Both the position numbers and the translations under genes were made by a program. The notes below the pieces were generated by a model. It was not told the origin of the DNA and searched no databases. It worked only from the letters and a program-made list of their open reading frames with translations. Positions 14,729-38,455 of a stretch of DNA of 64,000 nt are shown piece by piece. Source of the stretch: Candidatus Binatia bacterium (GTDB taxonomy: Bacteria; Desulfobacterota; Binatia; HRBIN30; BPIQ01). The stretch lies in NCBI GenBank assembly GCA_026004195.1, contig BPIQ01000002.1:744585-808584 (forward strand), in the 5' to 3' direction. The number at the start of each line of letters is the position of its first letter. Position 1 is the stretch's first letter.

Positions 14729-17700
14729 CTAGACCTCGCGCACCACACCCGGGTGGAGAAACCAGAGTTCGCACCGAGGAAGGCGGGGCAAGTCCCAAGC
14801 TTTCCGGACGGCCCGAGCGTAGCGCTCGAGCTGGAGCCGGTAGATTCCGACCCGCCCTTCGACCTCGTCCTCCGAGATTTCGTCGGTTTTGTAGTCGGCG
14901 ACGACGACCTCGCCTTTCTCGTCGCGGTAGAGGAGGTCGATGACGCCGGAATAGTAGCGCGTGGGACCGTCCGTCCCTTCGGCCTCGAGAAGGATCGGAA
15001 CCTCCCGGCCCAGGATCCGCGGAGCCATGCTTTTCCACCGAGCCGCGAGGGGGCCCGAGAGAAAACGGTCGAAAAGCTCCCGGGCACGCCGCCGGACGTC
15101 TTCTCGTAGCCGCGGCGGGACGAGCTGCTCGAGCCCGGGTCCCGGACCCTCGAGAAGTTCTCCGATCTGCACTCGGAGGTCCCGCTCGGCATCGAGCGCC
15201 TCGAGAATCCGGTGGACCACCGTCCCGGCAGCGAGAGCCACGGCTTCGGCGTCGGAAGCGCGGGGCATCTCCTCGGACGTTTCTCCGGGCGAGAAAAGCG
15301 TTCGGAACGCTTCCGCCTCGTCCGACGCGACACCGGCAGCGTAGGGGCGGTTCGCCCGCTCGCGCGCCGCGCGTCGCCGGTGCTCGAGGGCGAGGGAAGC
15401 AGCCTCGACGGCTTCGGCACCGGGCAACCCACTCCCGGTTGCCGGGACGGCGAGACCGGCCGTCTCCTTCCGGAGGGACGGAAAGACCCAGAGGACGCCG
15501 TCGTGCTCGACCACGTGCGTCCCGCGGGCAAGAGCGCGCTCCGCCAGCACCGAAACGCTTTCCGCGTGCCGCGACAAGAGCAGCGCACCGTGGCTCCGCT
15601 TCCCTCGGCTCCCCTTTCCTTCCCCGTCGCCCCACCTCCCGGAGAGAACCAGTCGCCGCTTCGCCCGCGTCATGGCGACGTAAAGCGTGCGCACCTGCTC
15701 GGCCTCGCGCAGTTCCCGGGCGTGGTCTTCGACGTCGCGCCACCCGGGAGAAGGCACGCCGAAGAGTCGGTACTCGAAGCGCCCGCGGCTTCTTCCCGCC
15801 CGAGTTTCCCCCTCGCCGGAGCCGCGCGGATCCCTCGCCAGGTCGAGCAGATAGACGTGTTCGAAGCCGAGACCTTTCGCCTGATGGATCGTGGAAACCA
15901 CCACGGCGTCCTCTTCCTCCACCGGAGGAGCCGCTTCACGGGCCTCGCGCCGCGCCCGTACGTCCGTCCGGAGCCCGCGGAGGAAACCCGGAACGCTCTC
16001 CCCCCGGTCGAGCGTGGCGGCGAGACCGTCGAAAAACCGGAGCGCGTTGGCGAGCCGATAGGGGCCGAGCTTTCTCGCCGCGACGAGAGGATCGGCGAGA
16101 AAAAGCTCGCGGAGCCGTTCGACGAAACCGTCGCCCGGATCCCGAGAGAACGCCTCGCGGAGCGCCGCGATCCGCCGCAAGGCGTCCCGGAGCCTCGAGC
16201 TCCAGTCCCCTGCCGCGCGGAGCTCCGGGAGACCCGCGAGGAGAGAGGAAACTTCTCCGACCACGGCATCCAGGCGGACGAGGACTTCGGCACGGGGCCC
16301 GGAAAGCGAGGCCACCAAGGAGGGAAAGTTCCTCGCCCAGAGCGGGATCCAGGCCGCGTCGGGAACCCCGACGAGCGAAGAGCGGAGAAAAGCGAGGAGG
16401 GCGAGCTCGTCGGCGGGATCGAGGACGCACCGGACGAGCGCGGCGGCTTCGATCACCTCGCGCCGGCGGTAGAATTGCCGGTCCCGCCGGACCAGGTACG
16501 GGATTCCGAGCTCCCGGAGCGCGTGCAGGTAGACGTCGAGGTCGGTGGTGGCCCGAAAAAGAAGCGCCATCTCGCGCCACCGCACGCCGTGCTCCCGGTG
16601 CAAGTCGAGGAGGTCGAGGGCGACCGCCCGCGCCTCGAGGCGCCGCAGCTCGGCAGCCGAAACTTCGCGTAGCCCCTGCCCCGCGTCGTCCCAGGGCCGG
16701 CACTCCCAGTATTCGACGGGCCCGTGCTCGCCCGCTCGGAAACCGGAGTCCGGGGCCCGCGCGGCGCAGGGCACGAGGTCCTGGAAGGGAGGCTGGATCC
16801 CGTGTCGCCGTTCGAAGAGCGGGGCGAGAGCCCGGGACACCTCGTCGAGGATCGGGGGTACGGAGCGGAAATTCTCGACGAGCTCGAGTCTCAGGCCCCC
16901 GTTCTTCTCGACCGAGCGGACGAAGTCGTCGTACGCGCGCAAGTCCGCGTCCCGCCAGCCGTAGATCGATTGCTTGGGGTCGCCCACGAGAAACAGCACG
17001 GGACCCGGTTCGGCCAGCGAGAGGTATCGCAGGATTTCGCACTGCAGGACGTCCGTGTCCTGGAACTCGTCGACGAGGAGCTGGTCGAAACTTCGCCGGA
17101 GCTTGCGGGCCACTTCCGGAGATCCCCGCAGCAGGCTTGCCGTCCGCTCGAGAAGCGTGTCGAAGGTCTCGACGCCCTGCCGCCGCAGCTCCCCCTCGAC
17201 CTCGCGCAAAAGAGGCAGGAGAGCCGCGCGCGCAAGCTCGAGCTTTTCCGCGTCGATCCCGCAGATCCGCTCGAGTTCCTCCGAGAGCCGTCGTCGAGCC
17301 AGGGAAAACTCTTCGCCCTGCGTTTTTTCGGCTTCCGCGAACCGGCTCCTCCCGCCCTTCGGTTTTTCTTCGACCGGCCAGCGCCCGCGAAGCCACTGGA
17401 CGGCGCTCCGGAACGACTCCGCATCCCGGGGCAGGTGTCGTGGCAGGACGGCGGCGATCCGGCGGGCTCGACGGGCTAGCTTGCTGGCAGCTCCGTCGCC
17501 CGACCGCTCCGCGCAGGAACCCAGAGCGAAAAAGGCCTCCCGAAGCTTCTCCCAGACCGGGCCGACACGCTCGGCGACGAAGGGGCTTTCTTCGAGGTCC
17601 ACCGACGACACCCCGCGCGAGCGAAGCTCGAGGAGCGCCGCCTCGACCGCACCGAGACCGTGACCGAGCCGTGCGAGCTCGAGCAGCAGCGGCCGAAGTT

Positions 17701-18271
17701 CCCCTTCCACCGCCCGTTCGAGGACGCGACGAACCAGGGCAGCCTCCCGCTTGCCGTCCGCGTCGATCTCGAAGGCGGGATGGACACCCGCCTCGAGGGG
17801 AAAGCTCGCGAGGATCCGGGCGCAAAAGGAGTGAATCGTGCGGAGCACGATGCGATCCAGGGCAGAAAGGAGAGCGCGGGCCCGACTCCGCGCGACCTCC
17901 CCGCACGCCGGCAGAGCCTCGGCGAGAAGGCCCGGGGGCAACTCTCCCTGTGCCACGGTACGGAGAAACTCCGCCGTTCTCTCCGCCAGCTCTTCGGCGG
18001 CGGACTCCGTGAAAGTGATCGCCACGACACGCTCGAACACGCGACGCGCCACGCGCTCGGGCCCGGGACCCATCTCTTTTTCGGCGCGCTCCCACCCCGG
18101 ACCCAACGACCACCCGAGAATCCGCGTGACGAGAACCGTCGTCTTTCCCGTTCCCGCCCCCGCCTCGAGAACGAGAGGGCGGTCGAAGACCGTCTGCGCG
18201 ACGAGTCGCGCTTCCCTGTCACCGCGAGCCATGTCCTCGGTCGGCAGCATCGGGCTCGTCCTCATTTCCAA
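14729..18271 (-). CDS. addA: AddA-like ATP-dependent helicase/nuclease subunit A
   Basis: This 1180-aa protein is a UvrD-type superfamily 1A helicase fused to a C-terminal PD-(D/E)XK nuclease, the AddA layout. Motifs in order: Walker A EAGAGTGKT (36-44), TFTESAAEELAERT, LLVDEFQDTDVLQ, VGDPKQSIYGWRDADL, VSTIHQAKGLGFEHVYLLD, LYVAMTRAKRRLVLSG and the nuclease VVADYKTDE. With AddB it processes double-strand breaks for RecA loading. Its ATG overlaps the addB stop by 10 bp, so the two are translationally coupled. The length is normal for AddA. Confidence 0.92.
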   Translation of the reverse strand: MEMRTSPMLPTEDMARGDREARLVAQTVFDRPLVLEAGAGTGKTTVLVTRILGWSLGPGWERAEKEMGPGPERVARRVFERVVAITFTESAAEELAERTAEFLRTVAQGELPPGLLAEALPACGEVARSRARALLSALDRIVLRTIHSFCARILASFPLEAGVHPAFEIDADGKREAALVRRVLERAVEGELRPLLLELARLGHGLGAVEAALLELRSRGVSSVDLEESPFVAERVGPVWEKLREAFFALGSCAERSGDGAASKLARRARRIAAVLPRHLPRDAESFRSAVQWLRGRWPVEEKPKGGRSRFAEAEKTQGEEFSLARRRLSEELERICGIDAEKLELARAALLPLLREVEGELRRQGVETFDTLLERTASLLRGSPEVARKLRRSFDQLLVDEFQDTDVLQCEILRYLSLAEPGPVLFLVGDPKQSIYGWRDADLRAYDDFVRSVEKNGGLRLELVENFRSVPPILDEVSRALAPLFERRHGIQPPFQDLVPCAARAPDSGFRAGEHGPVEYWECRPWDDAGQGLREVSAAELRRLEARAVALDLLDLHREHGVRWREMALLFRATTDLDVYLHALRELGIPYLVRRDRQFYRRREVIEAAALVRCVLDPADELALLAFLRSSLVGVPDAAWIPLWARNFPSLVASLSGPRAEVLVRLDAVVGEVSSLLAGLPELRAAGDWSSRLRDALRRIAALREAFSRDPGDGFVERLRELFLADPLVAARKLGPYRLANALRFFDGLAATLDRGESVPGFLRGLRTDVRARREAREAAPPVEEEDAVVVSTIHQAKGLGFEHVYLLDLARDPRGSGEGETRAGRSRGRFEYRLFGVPSPGWRDVEDHARELREAEQVRTLYVAMTRAKRRLVLSGRWGDGEGKGSRGKRSHGALLLSRHAESVSVLAERALARGTHVVEHDGVLWVFPSLRKETAGLAVPATGSGLPGAEAVEAASLALEHRRRAARERANRPYAAGVASDEAEAFRTLFSPGETSEEMPRASDAEAVALAAGTVVHRILEALDAERDLRVQIGELLEGPGPGLEQLVPPRLREDVRRRARELFDRFLSGPLAARWKSMAPRILGREVPILLEAEGTDGPTRYYSGVIDLLYRDEKGEVVVADYKTDEISEDEVEGRVGIYRLQLERYARAVRKAWDLPRLPRCELWFLHPGVVREV

Positions 18272-21200
18272 CCGGCGCGCCAGACCCTCCGGGCGGCAAG
18301 CTCGCCTCGCGACGAAACCGCTTCCTCCTCACGCAGCCAACCCCCGAGGCGCTCGGTGGCCACGGGGTCTCCCCGAAGGCAGGCTTCCGCGACACCGCAC
18401 GTGAGGCACCCTCTCGGTTCCGAACCCTTCTGGTCGAGAAGGCGCGGGAAAAACCATCCTTCCTCCCAAGCCGCGAGCGCGATCCCGACGACTTCCCGGA
18501 ACGCGTCGTCGACCTCCGGTCGTCCGGACTCCCGGACGTCCTTCGGAAAATCGGTCCGCCTCGGGTCGAGCAGGAGAAACCTCCCCTCGCGGCTCCCGCT
18601 CGCCCGGTATGCGTAGGCGGCAAGCTGCAGCCACTTGCCTTTCCGAACCTGCGTTTCCGTCCTGCCCGACTCGCTCGATGTCTTGTAGTCCGTGAGCAGG
18701 AGCTTCTCCCCGGACCGGTCGACCCGATCGACCCGGAAGCCGATCCTCCGCCCCCCGACATCGACGAACCCGTCGACCTCCGCGGCGAGCACCCACGGTC
18801 CCCCGCCCGCCCAGTCCGCCGCCCGGGCGAGCTCGAGATACCGCCGCGCCTCCTCGACGACGACGGGGGCCAGTGTCGAAACGGGTAGACCCTCTTCGGC
18901 GAGAACGCCCTCCACGGCCTCGCGCAGCAGGGATTCGAGCTCCCCGGGCTCGGGCCAGCGAACGAGGACGGGTGCGCGATTCTCGACTTCGGCGAGAACC
19001 TTCGACCCGGCTCCCGTCTCGCGGCGGACGATTCCCTGGAGAGCCCGGTGCACGATCGATCCGAGCACGCGCCTGCCCGCGCCGAGAGAAGGAACGACGG
19101 GAGGCTCGACGCGGAGCAGACGCTCGACGAAGGTCTGCCAGGGACAGCGAACGAAACGTTCGATCGTCGTCACGTAAGGGTCGTTCCGCCGCGGATCGGC
19201 AGGCTCCACGACGGGCCCGACGAAGCCGGAATAGGGTCCGGGCCGCAGCTCGTCCGCATCGAGCTCTCGCAGGACAGCGACCCTGGCCGACGCGAGATCC
19301 CGGGCCGAGAAGGACGACCCGGCCTCGTGACCGTGCCGAGCGTCCACTTCCCGCTGTGCGAGCCCGAGAACTTCCGCATCGATGTTCGAGCCTTCACGGA
19401 GTGCCCGGAGGACCGCCTGCTCGAACGCCGATCGCGGAAGGAACCCTTCGCCGTAAAGAGCGGGAGCACGCTCGACCACGACACCTTCGTCCTCGCGGAG
19501 CGCTTCGACGAAGGGAGAGGGTGCCAGCGGCTCGTCGTCGTGGCCCCGGGCGGGCCACGAGACCGTCACCTCGGGACTCGCGGAAAGAAGGTGCCAGAAG
19601 AGGTGGCGCTCTTCGTCGAAGCCCAGGGCCTTGATCGGAAGGTCCGGAAGAACCGACCGGAGCCGCGCGCGCACGGCATCCGGCAAGAGGGGATCCTCGC
19701 GGACGACCCGTGGGAAGACGTCGCGGCTGCAACCCAGGACGAAAAGCACGGAGAAGGTCCTTCCGCGTGCTTCCGTGACGTCGAGAACCTGGACCCCGCT
19801 CCCCTTCCCGCCGAAGGGAGACCTCTCGTGGTCGCTCAGGACCTCCCGCAAAAGCCAGAAGAACTCCTCGCGAGCGAGAGAAAGCCCCCGGGCTTTCTCC
19901 GGTACGGCGTCGCCAAGAAGCGAGCCTAGCTCCGCCTGTGCTTTTCGGGGCAGGTACCCGAGCGCCACCCGGAGCCGCCTTTCGTGCTCCTCGACCGGCG
20001 CCTCGCCGGGCCAGGTTCCGAGAAAGGCCACGAACCTCCGGATGTCTTCGAAAAAGGACAGAACGACCGACCTCGGAAGAGCGGCCCGGCGCACCGTGAC
20101 CGTGCGCGCCGGACCCTCCGGTTCTTTCCCGCCTTCGCGAACCGGCCCGTCTCTTTCCCGGACCTCGAAACCCAGCGAGACCGGCAGAACGACCTCGGAC
20201 CCGAGCCTCTCGGCGTCGACGGCGTGGACGTCGCCGAGCCGCGAGAGCCCGAGCCGCCGGAGCGCGAGGGCGAGCTCGAACCGCCGAACTCCCCGAAACT
20301 CCTCGTCGGGAGAAAAAAGTTCGAGCCACCGATCGAGCTGAGCCTCGGACCCGTCGGTCAAGCAATCGAGGAACGCGAGCGCGCGGTGGGTCGTCCAGGA
20401 TGCAGGGCCGGATAGGCCGAGCGTCGAGAAGGGAATCCCGAGACGATCGAGATGCGCCCGCAGGGCCGTGCGGTAGCGGGAGAAGTCCCGCGCCACGACC
20501 CCGATTTCCTCGGGAACGACTCCTTCCTCGAGAGCACGGAGGATTCTCTCGCCCACCTCCCGCACTTCGGCAGCCACGTCGGGCGCTCGAAGAAGGCGAA
20601 GGCGTCGCGCCGGACGCGATGGAGCGCGTCCCTCCGGAGGTTCGCCGGAGGGCCACGCTCCGTCGTGGCCGCGTTCGGTGTCGGCGTGAACCCCCGCCCC
20701 CGGAGGCGACGCAGCGCGTCTTCGGGCGGGGGGGACCAGACCCAACCGTTCGACGAAACGCGAAACGTACGAAGGTTCTCCGGCTTCCCCACCGAGCGGA
20801 TCGTCGACGAAGAAAAACGCGTCGTCCCGCCGGAGCAAGGTCTCGAGAAGGTCCGCGGCGACGCCCGTGGCGTCCGAAAAGCCGTGGACGAAGAGACCGC
20901 GGGCCCGGAGGAAGTCCGGGCCTTCTCGGAGGAGGACTTCTCGCGCCTTGCGAAGAACGTCGGCCCTCCGGTCGAGACCGAGGCTCCGGAGTCGCGACGC
21001 CACGCGGGCGGCGGTACGCACGAGTGCTCGCCCCCGCTCCCGGACTTCCCGGTCTTCTTCTTCGGACAGGGCGTCTTCCAGAGCCGGCCCGTGTTCGGCC
21101 TCCATCCCGGCGTCGAGAAAGTCCGCCACCGACGCCGCGACACCCAGGTAGCCGTCGCGGAAGCGAAGCACGGAGCCCGAAAGAGCGCCCTCGAAGCTTG

Positions 21201-21507
21201 CTTCCCGGGATACGAGCGAAGGAAAGAGCATGTCGGCCGGCGTCCACGAAACCCCCGCCCGCTCGAGGATCTCGCAAGCGAGACCGAAAAGAGTCTGCAC
21301 TCGGACACCCACGAGCGCACCCCCGAACCGGCGGACCAGGACATCCCCTACGTGGAGCCGAAGGCTGCGGGAGGGAACCACGACGCGAATCGGGACGCTC
21401 GCCTCCCGGCTCGCCAGGCGTGCCTCGATCGCTCGGAGGAGCGCCTCCTCGGCCGCCAGCACGCTATCGGCGACGCGAACTCGCTCGGTGCCGGGAGTGT
21501 CGCTCAC
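18262..21507 (-). CDS. addB: AddB-like exonuclease subunit B
   Basis: The 1081-aa partner of AddA has a diverged helicase-like N-terminal part without a recognisable Walker A, and a C-terminal PD-(D/E)XK nuclease (GFRVDRVDRSGEKLLLTDYKTS, Asp about 940). Four cysteines, Cys788 (RFVRCPW) and Cys1034, 1037 and 1043 (CLTCGVAEAC), form the C-x(~245)-C-x2-C-x5-C iron-sulfur pattern that frames AddB nuclease domains. Residues about 278-299 are encoded by an inverted pair of hairpin repeats and look like an inserted linker. The gene overlaps addA by 10 bp. Confidence 0.88.
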   Translation of the reverse strand: MSDTPGTERVRVADSVLAAEEALLRAIEARLASREASVPIRVVVPSRSLRLHVGDVLVRRFGGALVGVRVQTLFGLACEILERAGVSWTPADMLFPSLVSREASFEGALSGSVLRFRDGYLGVAASVADFLDAGMEAEHGPALEDALSEEEDREVRERGRALVRTAARVASRLRSLGLDRRADVLRKAREVLLREGPDFLRARGLFVHGFSDATGVAADLLETLLRRDDAFFFVDDPLGGEAGEPSYVSRFVERLGLVPPARRRAASPPGAGVHADTERGHDGAWPSGEPPEGRAPSRPARRLRLLRAPDVAAEVREVGERILRALEEGVVPEEIGVVARDFSRYRTALRAHLDRLGIPFSTLGLSGPASWTTHRALAFLDCLTDGSEAQLDRWLELFSPDEEFRGVRRFELALALRRLGLSRLGDVHAVDAERLGSEVVLPVSLGFEVRERDGPVREGGKEPEGPARTVTVRRAALPRSVVLSFFEDIRRFVAFLGTWPGEAPVEEHERRLRVALGYLPRKAQAELGSLLGDAVPEKARGLSLAREEFFWLLREVLSDHERSPFGGKGSGVQVLDVTEARGRTFSVLFVLGCSRDVFPRVVREDPLLPDAVRARLRSVLPDLPIKALGFDEERHLFWHLLSASPEVTVSWPARGHDDEPLAPSPFVEALREDEGVVVERAPALYGEGFLPRSAFEQAVLRALREGSNIDAEVLGLAQREVDARHGHEAGSSFSARDLASARVAVLRELDADELRPGPYSGFVGPVVEPADPRRNDPYVTTIERFVRCPWQTFVERLLRVEPPVVPSLGAGRRVLGSIVHRALQGIVRRETGAGSKVLAEVENRAPVLVRWPEPGELESLLREAVEGVLAEEGLPVSTLAPVVVEEARRYLELARAADWAGGGPWVLAAEVDGFVDVGGRRIGFRVDRVDRSGEKLLLTDYKTSSESGRTETQVRKGKWLQLAAYAYRASGSREGRFLLLDPRRTDFPKDVRESGRPEVDDAFREVVGIALAAWEEGWFFPRLLDQKGSEPRGCLTCGVAEACLRGDPVATERLGGWLREEEAVSSRGELAARRVWRAGWK
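20612..20673. repeat. Inverted pair of hairpin repeats inside addB
   Basis: Two copies of a short hairpin element face each other. Copy 1 (20612-20631) is GGACGCG-ATGGAG-CGCGTCC followed by CTCCGG; copy 2 (20651-20670) is GGCCACG-CTCCGT-CGTGGCC preceded by CCGGAG. Each has a perfect 7-bp stem, but the stem sequences differ while the loop (ATGGAG / ACGGAG on the opposite strand) and flank are kept. Read with addB, copy 1 encodes PEGRAPSRP. The same element occurs at 24613 and 24673. Confidence 0.75.
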
Positions 21508-21546: not shown

Positions 21547-22290
21547 TCAGGCCACGGGTTCCGGTGCATCGAAGCTTCCGTGCATTCGTTCGATCCACAT
21601 GCCGAGAAAAGGGCGTCGCGAAAGCCCGAGACTTCGGAGCTCCTCGGCGACGGGCCCCGTGCCGAGCGTGTAGCTCGCCCCGAAGGGGACGAATCGCACG
21701 CCCTCTCCGCCGGAACGGAAACGGGTCCGGTGCAGCCTCCCCCCGATGCGTGAATACGTGAGCATCTCCGCGTCGGGAAGGGTGCGACGCCCGCCCGAGC
21801 GGTAGCGTAGCCCGAGGACGAGTCGGCCCTCCCGCTTCCAGTCGAAGCGGACGACGTCTCCCGTGCGTTCCATGCGGAGATCTTCCACCGTTTTGGGAAA
21901 GCCCCAGATCGTGCGGCCCGCTTCGCAGGTGAACTCTCCGTCGACGGGCAAGCGGTGGATGTAGGTGGGGAGTTTTCCGCGGAAAAAATCCGCCCAGTTG
22001 CGCATCCGAGCGAAGCGGGCGAGGCGCACGAAAAACGCGATGGAGATCTCGAGGTAACGGCCGAGGTCGTTGTCGCGGTACTCGATTCCCGCGAGACTCA
22101 CCAGCGCCCGGCCCGGCAACACCTCGGCAGGTTCCAGGCCGGTCCCCGCGAGCAGCCGCCGCACGGCGTTCGTCGAGGCGAAGTACGTCGCCGCACCGGA
22201 CGACGCGTCCCGTACCACGACGGGAAGCCGAACTTCCTGCCCGAGGATGGTGTAGCGGGGTGCGTCGGTACGTGTGGCGGCCGTGGCCAT
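21547..22290 (-). CDS. Acetoacetate decarboxylase family protein
   Basis: A 247-aa cytosolic protein of the ADC beta-barrel family. The Schiff-base lysine is recognisable in GRTIWGFPKTVEDL (Lys133), preceded by an Arg/aromatic-rich barrel (YLEISIAFFVRLARF, TYIHRLPVDGEF). In the acetoacetate decarboxylase of Clostridium the next residue is also lysine and tunes the pKa; here it is Thr134, so a decarboxylase activity should not be assumed. It ends 39 bp before addB on the same strand. The substrate is unknown. Confidence 0.8.
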   Translation of the reverse strand: MATAATRTDAPRYTILGQEVRLPVVVRDASSGAATYFASTNAVRRLLAGTGLEPAEVLPGRALVSLAGIEYRDNDLGRYLEISIAFFVRLARFARMRNWADFFRGKLPTYIHRLPVDGEFTCEAGRTIWGFPKTVEDLRMERTGDVVRFDWKREGRLVLGLRYRSGGRRTLPDAEMLTYSRIGGRLHRTRFRSGGEGVRFVPFGASYTLGTGPVAEELRSLGLSRRPFLGMWIERMHGSFDAPEPVA

Positions 22291-23853: not shown

Positions 23854-25703
23854 CCGTCCGCGGTCGCCCTGCGGGGCGCCGGTTCGCGCGCGTACTGAAG
23901 CTCGTGGAGGCGCCAGTAGAGACCGCGCGCCCGAAGGAGCGATTCGTGCGTGCCCGTCTCGCGGACCGTGCCGCCGTGGAGCACCACGATCCTCTGCGCC
24001 CGCTCGATCGTGGAAAGACGGTGGGCGATGACGATGGACGTCCGTTCCCGGAAAAGCTTCTCGAGAGCGTCCTGGATCCAGAGTTCGGTTTCCGGGTCCA
24101 CGTTGGCCGTCGCCTCGTCGAGAACCAGGATCTCGGGGTCGAACGCGAGCGCTCTCGCGAAGGCCAGCAGCTGCCGTTCGCCCGCGGAAAAATTCGCCCC
24201 CCGCTCCTGCACGGGCTCGCGGAAACCCCTCGGCAGCCGTTCCACGATCCTGAGGACGTGAACCCGACGGGCTACCTCCCGGATGCGCTCGTCGGAAATG
24301 CGGTCGTCACCCAGGCGGATGTTGTCGGCGATCGTCCCGGAGAAAAGAAACACGTCCTGGAAGACGACCCCGATGCGCCGCCGGAGCTCCTCGAGATCCC
24401 AGTCGCGAACCTCGACCCCGTCGACGAAAATCCTTCCCTTCTGCGGGTCGTAGAAGCGGGTCAGCAGCTTGATCACGGTCGTTTTCCCCGCACCCGTGGG
24501 ACCCACGAGCGCGACCGTTTCGCCCGGGTCGACCCGGAAGCTCACGTCCCGGAGCACCCACTCGCCTTCCTTGTACGCGAACCAGACGCCGTCGAAGACC
24601 ACCTCGCCCCGCGGACGCGACGGAGCGCGTCCCTCCGGCGAGGGTGCCGTATCCCCCCGAACCCCCGCCGCAGGGCGCGACCGGGCGCGTCCCTCCGCGG
24701 GCGTATCGAGGAGCTGGAACACCCGCTCCGCGGACGCCATGGCGGACTGGAGAACGGCGTACTTCGTCGAGAAGTCGCGGATCGGGACGAAGAATTTCTG
24801 GATGTACTCGAGGAAGGCCACGAGCGTTCCGAAAGCCAGCGTCCCGGCAAGAATCTGCCCGCCGCCGTACCAGACGATGAGGGCGAAAGCCACGGAGCTC
24901 AGCGCCTCCACGAGCGAAAAGAGCGCCGCTTCGTAGATGTTCGAACGGTGGTTGGCGAGCCGGTGGGCGTCGTTCAGGCGGTCGAAGGTCCGGAGCGCCC
25001 AGTCCTCCCGGGCGAAAAGCTGGACGACCCGCACGCCGGAAATGCACTCCTGGAGGTAGGAGTTCAGCCGCGCGAGCCGTTCGCGGATTCGGCGGTAGCT
25101 CTCGCGGGCTTGCCTCCGGAAAAAGTCGACGGCCAGCAGCAACACGGGCAGAACGGAAAAGGTCACGAGCGCGAGTCGCCAGTCGATCGCGACGAGGATG
25201 GCGACGATACCCACGAGCGTGAGGAGGTCCATCAGGATCGTCATGGCCCCGGCCGCGAACATCTCGTTGATGCCGTCGACGTCCGTCGTGAGCCGGGTGA
25301 CGATACGCCCGACGGGGTTGCGGTCGAAAAAGGACACGGGAAGCCGCTCGACGTGGGCGAAGAGGTCGTGCCGGAGGTCGGCCAGGCTCCTCTGGGCCAC
25401 GGACATGGTGGCGACGTACTGGCCGTACTGGAACGCGAACTCGGCGACGATAGCGGCAGCGAACAGCGCGGCGCACCCGAAGAGGCCGTCGAGGTGTCCC
25501 TGCGCGATGTAACGGTCGATCGCGACCTTCAGGATGTAGGGCTGCGCCAGCATGGCGACCGAACTCGCCGGAAGAAAAAGGACGGCGAGCCAGAACGTAC
25601 GTCGGTAGGGCCGCATGTATCCCCAGAGGCGGCCCAGGATGCGGAGGTCGTAAGCCTTGCCGAGCTCCTGTTCGGCGTATCGTTCCGAGGCGGAGTCCGT
25701 CAC
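23850..25703 (-). CDS. ABC exporter half-transporter, catalytically canonical subunit
   Basis: The 617-aa protein has a six-helix ABC exporter domain (about 30-325) and a nucleotide-binding domain (from about 367) with Walker A GPTGAGKT, signature FSAGERQ, Walker B ILVLDEATANVD with the catalytic Glu, and the H-loop IAHRLSTIERA. Residues about 337-364 between the two domains are encoded by two hairpin repeats. The GTG start at 25703 overlaps the stop of the partner gene (GTGA). It likely forms a heterodimer with that partner, like MdlAB, LmrCD or TmrAB; the substrate is unknown. Confidence 0.9.
   Translation of the reverse strand: MTDSASERYAEQELGKAYDLRILGRLWGYMRPYRRTFWLAVLFLPASSVAMLAQPYILKVAIDRYIAQGHLDGLFGCAALFAAAIVAEFAFQYGQYVATMSVAQRSLADLRHDLFAHVERLPVSFFDRNPVGRIVTRLTTDVDGINEMFAAGAMTILMDLLTLVGIVAILVAIDWRLALVTFSVLPVLLLAVDFFRRQARESYRRIRERLARLNSYLQECISGVRVVQLFAREDWALRTFDRLNDAHRLANHRSNIYEAALFSLVEALSSVAFALIVWYGGGQILAGTLAFGTLVAFLEYIQKFFVPIRDFSTKYAVLQSAMASAERVFQLLDTPAEGRARSRPAAGVRGDTAPSPEGRAPSRPRGEVVFDGVWFAYKEGEWVLRDVSFRVDPGETVALVGPTGAGKTTVIKLLTRFYDPQKGRIFVDGVEVRDWDLEELRRRIGVVFQDVFLFSGTIADNIRLGDDRISDERIREVARRVHVLRIVERLPRGFREPVQERGANFSAGERQLLAFARALAFDPEILVLDEATANVDPETELWIQDALEKLFRERTSIVIAHRLSTIERAQRIVVLHGGTVRETGTHESLLRARGLYWRLHELQYAREPAPRRATADG
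24613..24637. repeat. Hairpin repeat copy in ABC transporter gene
   Basis: GGACGCG-ACGGAG-CGCGTCC followed by CTCCGG: a perfect 7-bp stem with the conserved loop, in the same orientation as copy 1 in addB. In the reading frame of the host gene it encodes PEGRAPSRPR, the same frame as in addB, just before the nucleotide-binding domain. Confidence 0.75.
24673..24697. repeat. Second hairpin repeat copy in ABC transporter gene
   Basis: GGGCGCG-ACCGGG-CGCGTCC followed by CTCCG. It is a direct copy of the element 60 bp away, somewhat diverged in the loop, with one G-T wobble in the stem. It encodes AEGRARSRPA in the same frame. Confidence 0.65.
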
Positions 25704-37260: not shown

Positions 37261-38455
37261 CCTCGAGGCCTACGCCCAGATAGGCGGCCACGGTGTTCAT
37301 GTCCTTGTCCCCGCGGCCGGAGAGGTTGACGACGACGATCCGGTCGCGATCCATCCGGGAGGCGAGCTTTCCCGCGTAGGCGATCGCGTGAGCCGACTCC
37401 AGGGCGGGAATGATCCCCTCGGTCCGAGTCAGCAGCTCGAGCGCCTCGACGGCTTCCGCGTCCGTGACGGCGACGTAGGTCGCGCGACCGGTGTCCCGCA
37501 GGTAGGCGTGCTCCGGGCCCACGCCCGGGTAGTCGAGCCCCGGGGCGATGGAGTGGGCGGAGCGGATCTGTCCGGTTTCGTCCTGTACGACGTAGGTCTT
37601 CTTCCCGTGCAGAACCCCGACTTCCCCCGCGGTGATGGAAGCCGAGTGGCGGCCGGTTTCGATCCCCTCCCCTGCGGCCTCCACCCCGAAAAGCCGTACC
37701 TCGGGGTCCCCGAGGAACGGATAGAAGAGACCCATGGCGTTGCTACCCCCACCCACGCACGCGACGAGAACGTCCGGTAACCGCCCCTCCTTACGGAGGA
37801 TCTGCCTCCGGGTCTCGCGGCCGATCACGGACTGGAAATCCCGCACCATCATGGGGTAGGGGTGAGCCGACATCGTCGAGCCGACGAGATAGTGGGTCGT
37901 CGTCACGTTCGTCACCCAGTCCCGCAGCGCTTCGTTGATGGCGTCCTTCAAGGTTTCGCTCCCCGAGGCGACCGGATGCACCCGGGCTCCGAGCAGCTTC
38001 ATGCGAAAGACGTTCAGCGACTGCCTTTGCACGTCGGCCCGTCCCATGTAGATCTCGCAGGCAAGCCCGAAAAGAGCGCAGACCGTCGCCGTGGCGACAC
38101 CGTGCTGCCCCGCTCCGGTCTCGGCGATGATCCGGTGTTTCCCGAGACGCCGGGCCAGAAGAGCCTGCCCGAGCGCGTTGTTGATCTTGTGGGAGCCGGT
38201 GTGGCACAGGTCCTCCCGCTTGAGGTAGATGCGGGCTCCGCCCCAGTAAGCGGTGAGATTCCGCGCGAACGTGAGCGGCGTCTCGCGACCCGCGTACTCG
38301 CGCAGGATCGCGGTCCACTCCTTGCGGAAGGTCGGATCGCGCCGGATCCTCCGGTATCCCCTCTCCAGCTCGACGAGAGCCGACATGAGAGTTTCCGAGA
38401 CGTAGCGTCCTCCGTAGACACCGAAGTGTCCTCGCGAGTCAGGCAGCCTTCGCAT
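37244..38455 (-). CDS. trpB: Tryptophan synthase beta subunit
   Basis: TrpB condenses indole with serine using PLP. The 403-aa protein has the catalytic lysine in [32 protein letters not shown], the GSGSNA-like phosphate loop [10 protein letters not shown], the cation/COMM region ([10 protein letters not shown]) and the C-terminal LSGRGDKD. Complete and canonical. It overlaps trpF by 17 bp. Confidence 0.97.

Follow-up and report, generated by a model that had tools for sequence, protein, structure and literature searches.

The paired hairpins inside the addB-like gene of the window (the whole stretch of 64,000 nucleotides that was analysed, C2:744585-808584 of a 3.63-Mb genome in 6 contigs that is 98.9% complete) very probably belong to a REP/REPIN family with the foot GGAG, most likely moved as folded single-stranded DNA by a RAYT that reads the foot together with the hairpin. 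Such REPs and REPINs would be non-autonomous single-strand mobile elements that are usually paired head-to-head, as one Z-type and one Y-type copy. The RAYT (an HUH tyrosine transposase, TnpAREP) would excise, copy or insert the folded strand on recognition of the GGAG foot and the hairpin; we infer its action on this element from the association of the two and from published RAYT biochemistry. The preliminary description of the locus had suggested that structure is under selection or that transposition depends on it, a view supported by copy number, covariation and RAYT-flanking hairpins.

Insertions in addB and an ABC-exporter gene

Re-inspection of the sequence confirmed the two facing, perfect 7-bp hairpins that had been reported within addB. 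Positions 20612-20631 read GGACGCG atggag CGCGTCC and positions 20651-20670 read GGCCACG ctccgt CGTGGCC; the two are mutually inverted, with their GGAG/CTCC flanks facing each other. They differ in stem by type, the first being a Z copy (with the loop CTCCAT, the usual loop being CTCCGT) and the second a Y copy (Table 1). While the hairpin pair thus exists, it is not the unit as which it had been described: the pair marks the point where a REPIN meets an extra copy, and the REPIN dimer itself, like the link to a RAYT, had been missed. Using nhmmer, the minus strand from 20720 to 20646 matched a profile built on 17 complete dimers of the same genome (E 8.9e-6), and the reversed window, used as a control, gave no match to the dimer profile better than E 2. 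As in the typical dimer of this genome, the spacer of the addB REPIN begins with GGGGGCGGGGG, according to the dimer profile. The limits given originally, 20612-20673, were therefore too narrow, as the dimer profile extends the element to 20610-20724; the whole insertion consists of the REPIN, one arm of which has decayed, and an extra Z copy.

The identification of addB is supported by its overlapping neighbour, which is addA-like. The insertion adds approximately 37 residues (RRAASPPGAGVHADTERGHDGAWPSGEPPEGRAPSRP) in frame, and an alignment with 18 homologues from the class placed it within a linker that is variable in both length and composition; these class-level orthologues are too distant to display an empty site. 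Lying in frame in a real gene, the segment could be ordinary conserved addB coding sequence that is palindromic by chance. This reading is refuted by the hundreds of copies elsewhere and by the orthologue comparison proposed at the outset, in which the same residues were not conserved, and we assign it next to no probability. The insert is probably a tolerated passenger sequence, and we claim no function for it in the AddB protein.

The remaining intact copy of the window lies in an ABC-exporter gene, so that all three intact REP copies are intragenic. It sits in the linker between the domains ABC_membrane (residues 327-596) and ABC_tran (residues 673-822), and the insertion, including a probable decayed second copy, spans 24601-24697. 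The Z, Y and third REP types (see below) contain no stop in any of the six frames; the GTAG foot includes a TAG stop, whereas the GGAG foot is without TAG. Genic copies may survive where an element open in six frames lands in a tolerant linker. In-frame REPs have previously been described in the repair genes uvrA, recB and dnaE2 (PMC3733652), and their occurrence in repair genes is therefore not new. Elsewhere in the window, a sub-threshold Rfam match to the guanidine-III riboswitch (22172-22229, plus strand; 20.2 bits versus 36, E 0.46) lies within a coding region and is probably due to chance.

Table 1. Features of the window (window positions) and RAYT loci of other genomes
Feature	Position or locus	Strand	Basis
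addA-like gene, UvrD helicase and PD-(D/E)XK nuclease; overlaps the end of addB	14729..18271	-	domain matches
addB-like gene, 1081 aa, PD-(D/E)XK domain	18262..21507	-	domain match; sub-cut-off matches to AddB-type models
Z-type REP copy in addB: GGAG tag, stem GGACGCG, loop CTCCAT, stem CGCGTCC	20612..20635	-	sequence; profile match 20636-20610, E 1.7e-4
Y-type REP copy in addB, one REPIN arm: GGAG tag, stem GGCCACG, loop CTCCGT, stem CGTGGCC	20647..20670	+	sequence; 165 exact type copies genome-wide
Complete head-to-head dimer (REPIN): decayed Z hairpin (about 20700-20724), spacer led by GGGGGCGGGGG, Y hairpin, tags outward	20646..20724	-	nhmmer profile
Z-type REP copy in ABC-exporter gene, in frame, encodes EGRAPSRP	24613..24636	-	pattern; profile match 24637-24601, E 3e-6
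Probable decayed second Z copy, same ABC-exporter linker, in tandem	24661..24697	-	dimer-profile match, E 0.12, weak
RAYTs flanked by family repeats	L188, L201 (Pelagicoccus mobilis), L208, L222, L242-L247, L250, L251, L253, L257, others		flank scans

Copies in the genome and conservation of the structure

The initially proposed pattern AYGGAG-N7-CTCCGG matched the window four times, compared to 0.09 matches expected from shuffles. Three of the matches are hairpins, the third being that at 24613-24636, and the match at 37793 is not a hairpin. A search for further copies, as had been suggested, yielded more than 560 in the genome and many more in other phyla. Genome-wide, CGGAGGGNNNCGCTCCRTCG gave 325 matches and GGAGGGNNNCGCTCYGTCGNNNCC gave 562 (strict copies; 3.63 Mb), and the exact Y type (loop CTCYGT) accounted for 165 copies; the reversed-pattern controls gave 0 in each case. 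The design of the family comprises a GGAG tag or foot, a 7-bp stem, the 6-nt loop CTCYGT, and the complementary stem.

For type and dimer counts, the genome was sampled in stretches (298 kb of REP-rich DNA and the window). The dominant types were Z (GGACGCG/CTCCGT), Y (GGCCACG/CTCTGT), and a third type, GGACCCG/CTCTGT. Neighbours at most 150 bp apart were arranged head-to-head (53), tail-to-tail (52) or head-to-tail (46); as the stretches were picked for containing Z copies, these proportions of types and orientations describe clusters. Head-to-head and tail-to-tail neighbours almost always combined Z with Y or with the third type, and the head-to-head pairs had a median spacer of 62 bp (mostly 30-65 bp). 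A heterodimer organisation has been reported for REPs of E. coli and others (PMC3733652, PMC3116915). Copies were strongly clustered, and on contig C1 the listed copies left gaps of approximately 545, 330, and 500 kb. Several arrays occurred close to the ends of contigs or within the 6.3-kb contig C6. Copies matching CGGAGGGNNNCGCTCCRTCG were distributed unevenly between the strands (122 forward, 203 reverse). On C2 and C3, GC skew was negative throughout the samples and 15 of 18 stretches were Z-minus (p 0.008), while C1 was mixed (4 of 10). Since C1 is mixed and gene direction is a confounding factor, we do not take this bias to prove that the lagging strand is targeted.

Within its own phylum, the family was present in 2 of 297 genomes, including that of the window, and its spread is therefore patchy. 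Among the matches listed from GTDB species genomes, the same design occurred in Opitutales, Puniceicoccaceae, Pelagicoccus, Lentisphaerae, Kiritimatiellae, Pirellulales, Planctomycetaceae, Gemmatales, and Phycisphaerae, as well as in Desulfobacterales, Fermentibacteria, Armatimonadetes, and others; outside its own phylum, the family lies mainly in Planctomycetes, Verrucomicrobia, and Lentisphaerae among these matches. The covariation analysis that had been proposed gave a strong signal across genomes. The three free stem positions were fully complementary in 102 of 114 copies of this design, compared to 1 in 64 by chance. When the pattern fixed nothing but foot and loop, a perfect 7-bp stem was present in 165 of 216 copies from other genomes. 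Among 83 distinct sequences, 38 had perfect stems, representing 27 perfectly paired stem types, versus 1.7 after shuffling of the arms (maximum of 8 in 2000). As the stems vary freely yet remain paired, it is the structure that is conserved. The constancy of foot and loop is partly due to construction, since both were fixed in most search patterns; the scans for all 7-bp hairpins and of RAYT flanks were looser.

Covarying stems with a constant loop and tag would also be expected if the hairpins were binding sites for protein or RNA, or elements that fold in the transcript (terminators, mRNA stabilisers and the like), that are selected locus by locus and are not mobile, and REPs elsewhere are thought to have such roles (PMC3733652). 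However, copies are located within the coding sequence of unrelated genes, and many sites carry whole dimers of 80-110 bp whose spacers are partly shared. The family is, furthermore, patchy across phyla and nearly absent from its own, many genomes have a cognate HUH nuclease gene with these hairpins on its flanks, and no relevant Rfam family matches the addB hairpin region. We therefore consider immobile sites of this kind improbable.

RAYTs associated with the repeats and a candidate foot-specificity residue

A Y1 transposase was present in 27 of 29 repeat-bearing genomes, and RAYTs of one clade were flanked by hairpins of the GGAG family in at least 15 other genomes (Table 1). Inspection of the flanks revealed RAYTs bracketed by family hairpins in Planctomycetaceae S139_18, where it is the only Y1 protein, Pelagicoccus mobilis, Verrucomicrobia AV69, and a Desulfobacterales MAG. 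The latter three are 45-55% identical to the RAYT of S139_18 across phyla (clade A1). RAYTs of this clade display the motifs DHIH or DHVH, WQ, and mostly Y---NP (YVxxNP). Against the NCBIfam model REP_Tyr_transpos (NF047646) the four proteins scored 78.8-96.1 bits; three passed the cut-off of 80 and the fourth scored 78.8. Of 50 repeat-bearing genomes, 37 contained relatives that matched a profile of the clade at E 1e-10 or better, and the highest-scoring relatives were again mostly bracketed by GGAG hairpins. Hosts of clade A1 with flanking hairpins include Planctomycetaceae, Pelagicoccus, Opitutales, Desulfobacterales, Fermentibacteria, Lentisphaerae, Phycisphaerae, and others, and the GTAG-flanked RAYTs of the same genomes mostly fall elsewhere in the tree. 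This association also bears on whether the pairs are transposon ends, MITEs or integron-type sites of a double-strand system (DDE or tyrosine recombinase). Inverted pairs of short repeats around a spacer do look MITE-like, but each arm is a perfect hairpin with an unpaired foot, the stems differ between the arms, and the associated gene encodes an HUH Y1 protein with the motifs DHIH, WQ, and Y---NP, which leaves a double-strand system very improbable.

In the genome of the window, no RAYT or Y1 transposase was detected by PF01797, the clade profile (E up to 10) or NF047646, and RAYTs were likewise not found in the repeat-bearing genomes SKYG40 and SKYG83. The copies of the window genome might accordingly have been spread by another enzyme, or by recombination or slippage within arrays, with the RAYT link holding only elsewhere. 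The many copies in local arrays of near-regular spacing are in line with such an orphan family. In contrast, the isolated insertions in addB and the ABC-exporter gene require transposition or retargeting, not slippage, and arrays, the usual surroundings of a RAYT, are located close to where contigs end and in C6, the smallest contig, so that a RAYT locus could sit in an assembly gap. On balance, we regard spread without a RAYT as unlikely, but as the most serious of the alternatives. Under the preferred reading of RAYT-driven movement, the RAYT that seeded this genome would have been lost after the expansion, orphaning the copies, or its gene would lie in an assembly gap; both are possible, and equally so.

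Several loci displayed variants of the arrangement. At L254 (1238-2245), L258 (1386-2026), and L263 (1262-2275), related RAYTs are flanked by REPs that have the GGAG foot but different loops (GTCCCC/GTCCTC, GGCCAC, CTCCTG), which suggests stronger conservation of the foot than of the loop. In an Opitutales MAG (L243, 576-1364), twelve head-to-tail GGAAACG REPs, mostly spaced by about 61 bp, lie directly upstream of the RAYT. Distant RAYTs of Lentisphaerae bin-0339 (L223: 1394, 2058; L225: 1276-2207) carry the motif YDSRIT or WDSRIT beside a foot of GGAG followed by T and form a separate GGAG lineage. Verrucomicrobial REPs at L210 (about 1208-2054), L231, L235, and L328 combine the foot GTAG and a following C with the loop CTCTGT of the GGAG family and with His-type RAYTs. 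A guide pairing or pseudoknot between tag and loop (GGAG with loop CTCC; in variants, C or T facing G) was rejected as a general rule, since the connecting loops of the pseudoknot would be 0 and 1 nt and the GTAG-footed REPs of L210, L231, and L328 have the identical CTCTGT loop.

RAYTs next to GTAG/GTGG hairpins read FFDHxLR or similar, and those next to GGAG hairpins read FWD[TRS]QLR or similar. By motif spacing, the differing position corresponds to H101 of E. coli, which has been discussed among the GTAG-interacting residues (PMC6006769). In the set used for the tree, His was absent from all 21 GGAG RAYTs and present in all 16 GTRG RAYTs (37/37 fit); owing to a single mismatch in its hairpins, L188 was assigned to GGAG manually. 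The tree requires three foot changes, two of them on well-supported branches, which limits the independence of these cases, and no phylogenetic p-value for the association of residue and foot in this set reached 0.05. A second set was drawn from genomes of the own phylum and of Verrucomicrobiae that were not selected for the repeat, a few Verrucomicrobiae recurring from the first. Here, 21 of 24 RAYTs fit: His occurred in 17 of 19 GTRG RAYTs and was absent from 4 of 5 GGAG RAYTs (Fisher p 0.006). The exceptions were L308 (Arg) and L309 (Phe) among the GTRG RAYTs and L338 among the GGAG RAYTs, which has His and the foot TGTGGAG, possibly a GTGG. Since Arg at this position occurs in subclasses with GT[AG]G feet (PMC6006769), it is not diagnostic of GGAG; Thr or Ser was seen only with GGAG where the foot was assignable.

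The amino acid at the H101 position may thus help to choose GGAG over GTAG. It is quite possible, though we would stop short of calling it probable, that a GGAG-tagged, RAYT-linked REP superfamily extends across PVC bacteria and beyond, that loss of His at this position switched the foot from GTAG to GGAG in at least two to three independent events, and that such elements, being free of TAG, have an unusual capacity for in-frame insertion, by which proteins gain peptides such as EGRAPSRP. Few experimental systems address foot recognition by RAYTs, which is still an open question (PMC8266576), and the partition of residue and foot, perfect in the first set and mostly upheld in the second, offers a direct single-substitution test.

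Comparison with known systems

REPs and RAYTs rank among the least understood mobile DNA of bacteria. The hairpins share with REPs a high copy number, a short hairpin with an unpaired 5' tetranucleotide and, in other genomes only, a RAYT flanked by the same repeats; as in REPINs, two inverted copies with outward feet enclose a spacer. REPs have been sorted into the superfamilies GTAG and CGTC (PMC3733652), neither of which accommodates the family. The copies in addB and the ABC-exporter gene carry the foot GGAG, and scans for both GGAG and GTAG showed GGAG next to the linked RAYTs. Like the GTAG REPs (the Y/Z REPs and BIMEs of E. coli, the REPINs of Pseudomonas), the family has an unpaired 5' tetranucleotide, hundreds of copies, inverted dimers, and RAYTs flanked by repeats. 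Unlike those REPs, with their foot GT[AG]G, it has the foot GGAG, a stem of 7 bp, a loop of 6 nt, and no built-in TAG stop, and its RAYTs have T, R or S in place of the H of GTAG RAYTs at the E. coli H101 position. The REPs of the type GTAG-C-stem-CTCTGT (L210, L231, L328) have their loop in common with the family, but differ in the foot (GTAG, then C), in their stems, and in RAYTs of the FFDHxLR type, unlike the GGAG clade. In-frame hairpins in protein genes and head-to-head dimers are also known from CGTC REPs and from RPE-4 and RPE-6 of Rickettsia (PMC3733652). CGTC REPs, however, have the foot CGTC, stems of 8-9 bp, loops of 4-5 nt, and no known transposase (PMC3733652), whereas the present family has a 7-bp stem, the foot GGAG, and a linked RAYT. 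A further parallel is provided by the intragenic GTAG REPs of the verrucomicrobial Opitutus terrae, copies of which lie in repair genes such as uvrA (PMC3733652). For annotation, the insertions in the window imply that such repeats can lie in real proteins, repair enzymes included, and encode recurring peptides such as EGRAPSRP.

Atypical feet have been reported as CnGA for class 3 TnpAY1 proteins and are unspecified for subclass 2.6 (PMC6006769). The class 3 systems of Planctomycetes and Acidobacteria, with the foot CnGA, resemble the GGAG family in high-copy hairpins, an atypical foot, and overlapping phyla (PMC6006769). The class 3 proteins, however, are characterised by NHVH, W[TA], and Y----Q, whereas the GGAG clade has DHIH, WQ, and Y---NP, the signature of class 2. 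The linked proteins accordingly conform to class 2 TnpAY1 (RAYT/TnpAREP) in HUH motif, WQ, Y---NP, and match to the REP_Tyr_transpos profile. The word GGAG is absent from the main texts of PMC3733652, PMC6006769, PMC8266576, and PMC2817692, and literature searches with sequence fragments returned only unrelated papers. Relative to the main texts of these surveys, the new part is thus the GGAG foot together with a RAYT clade of its own, within the known class of REPs.
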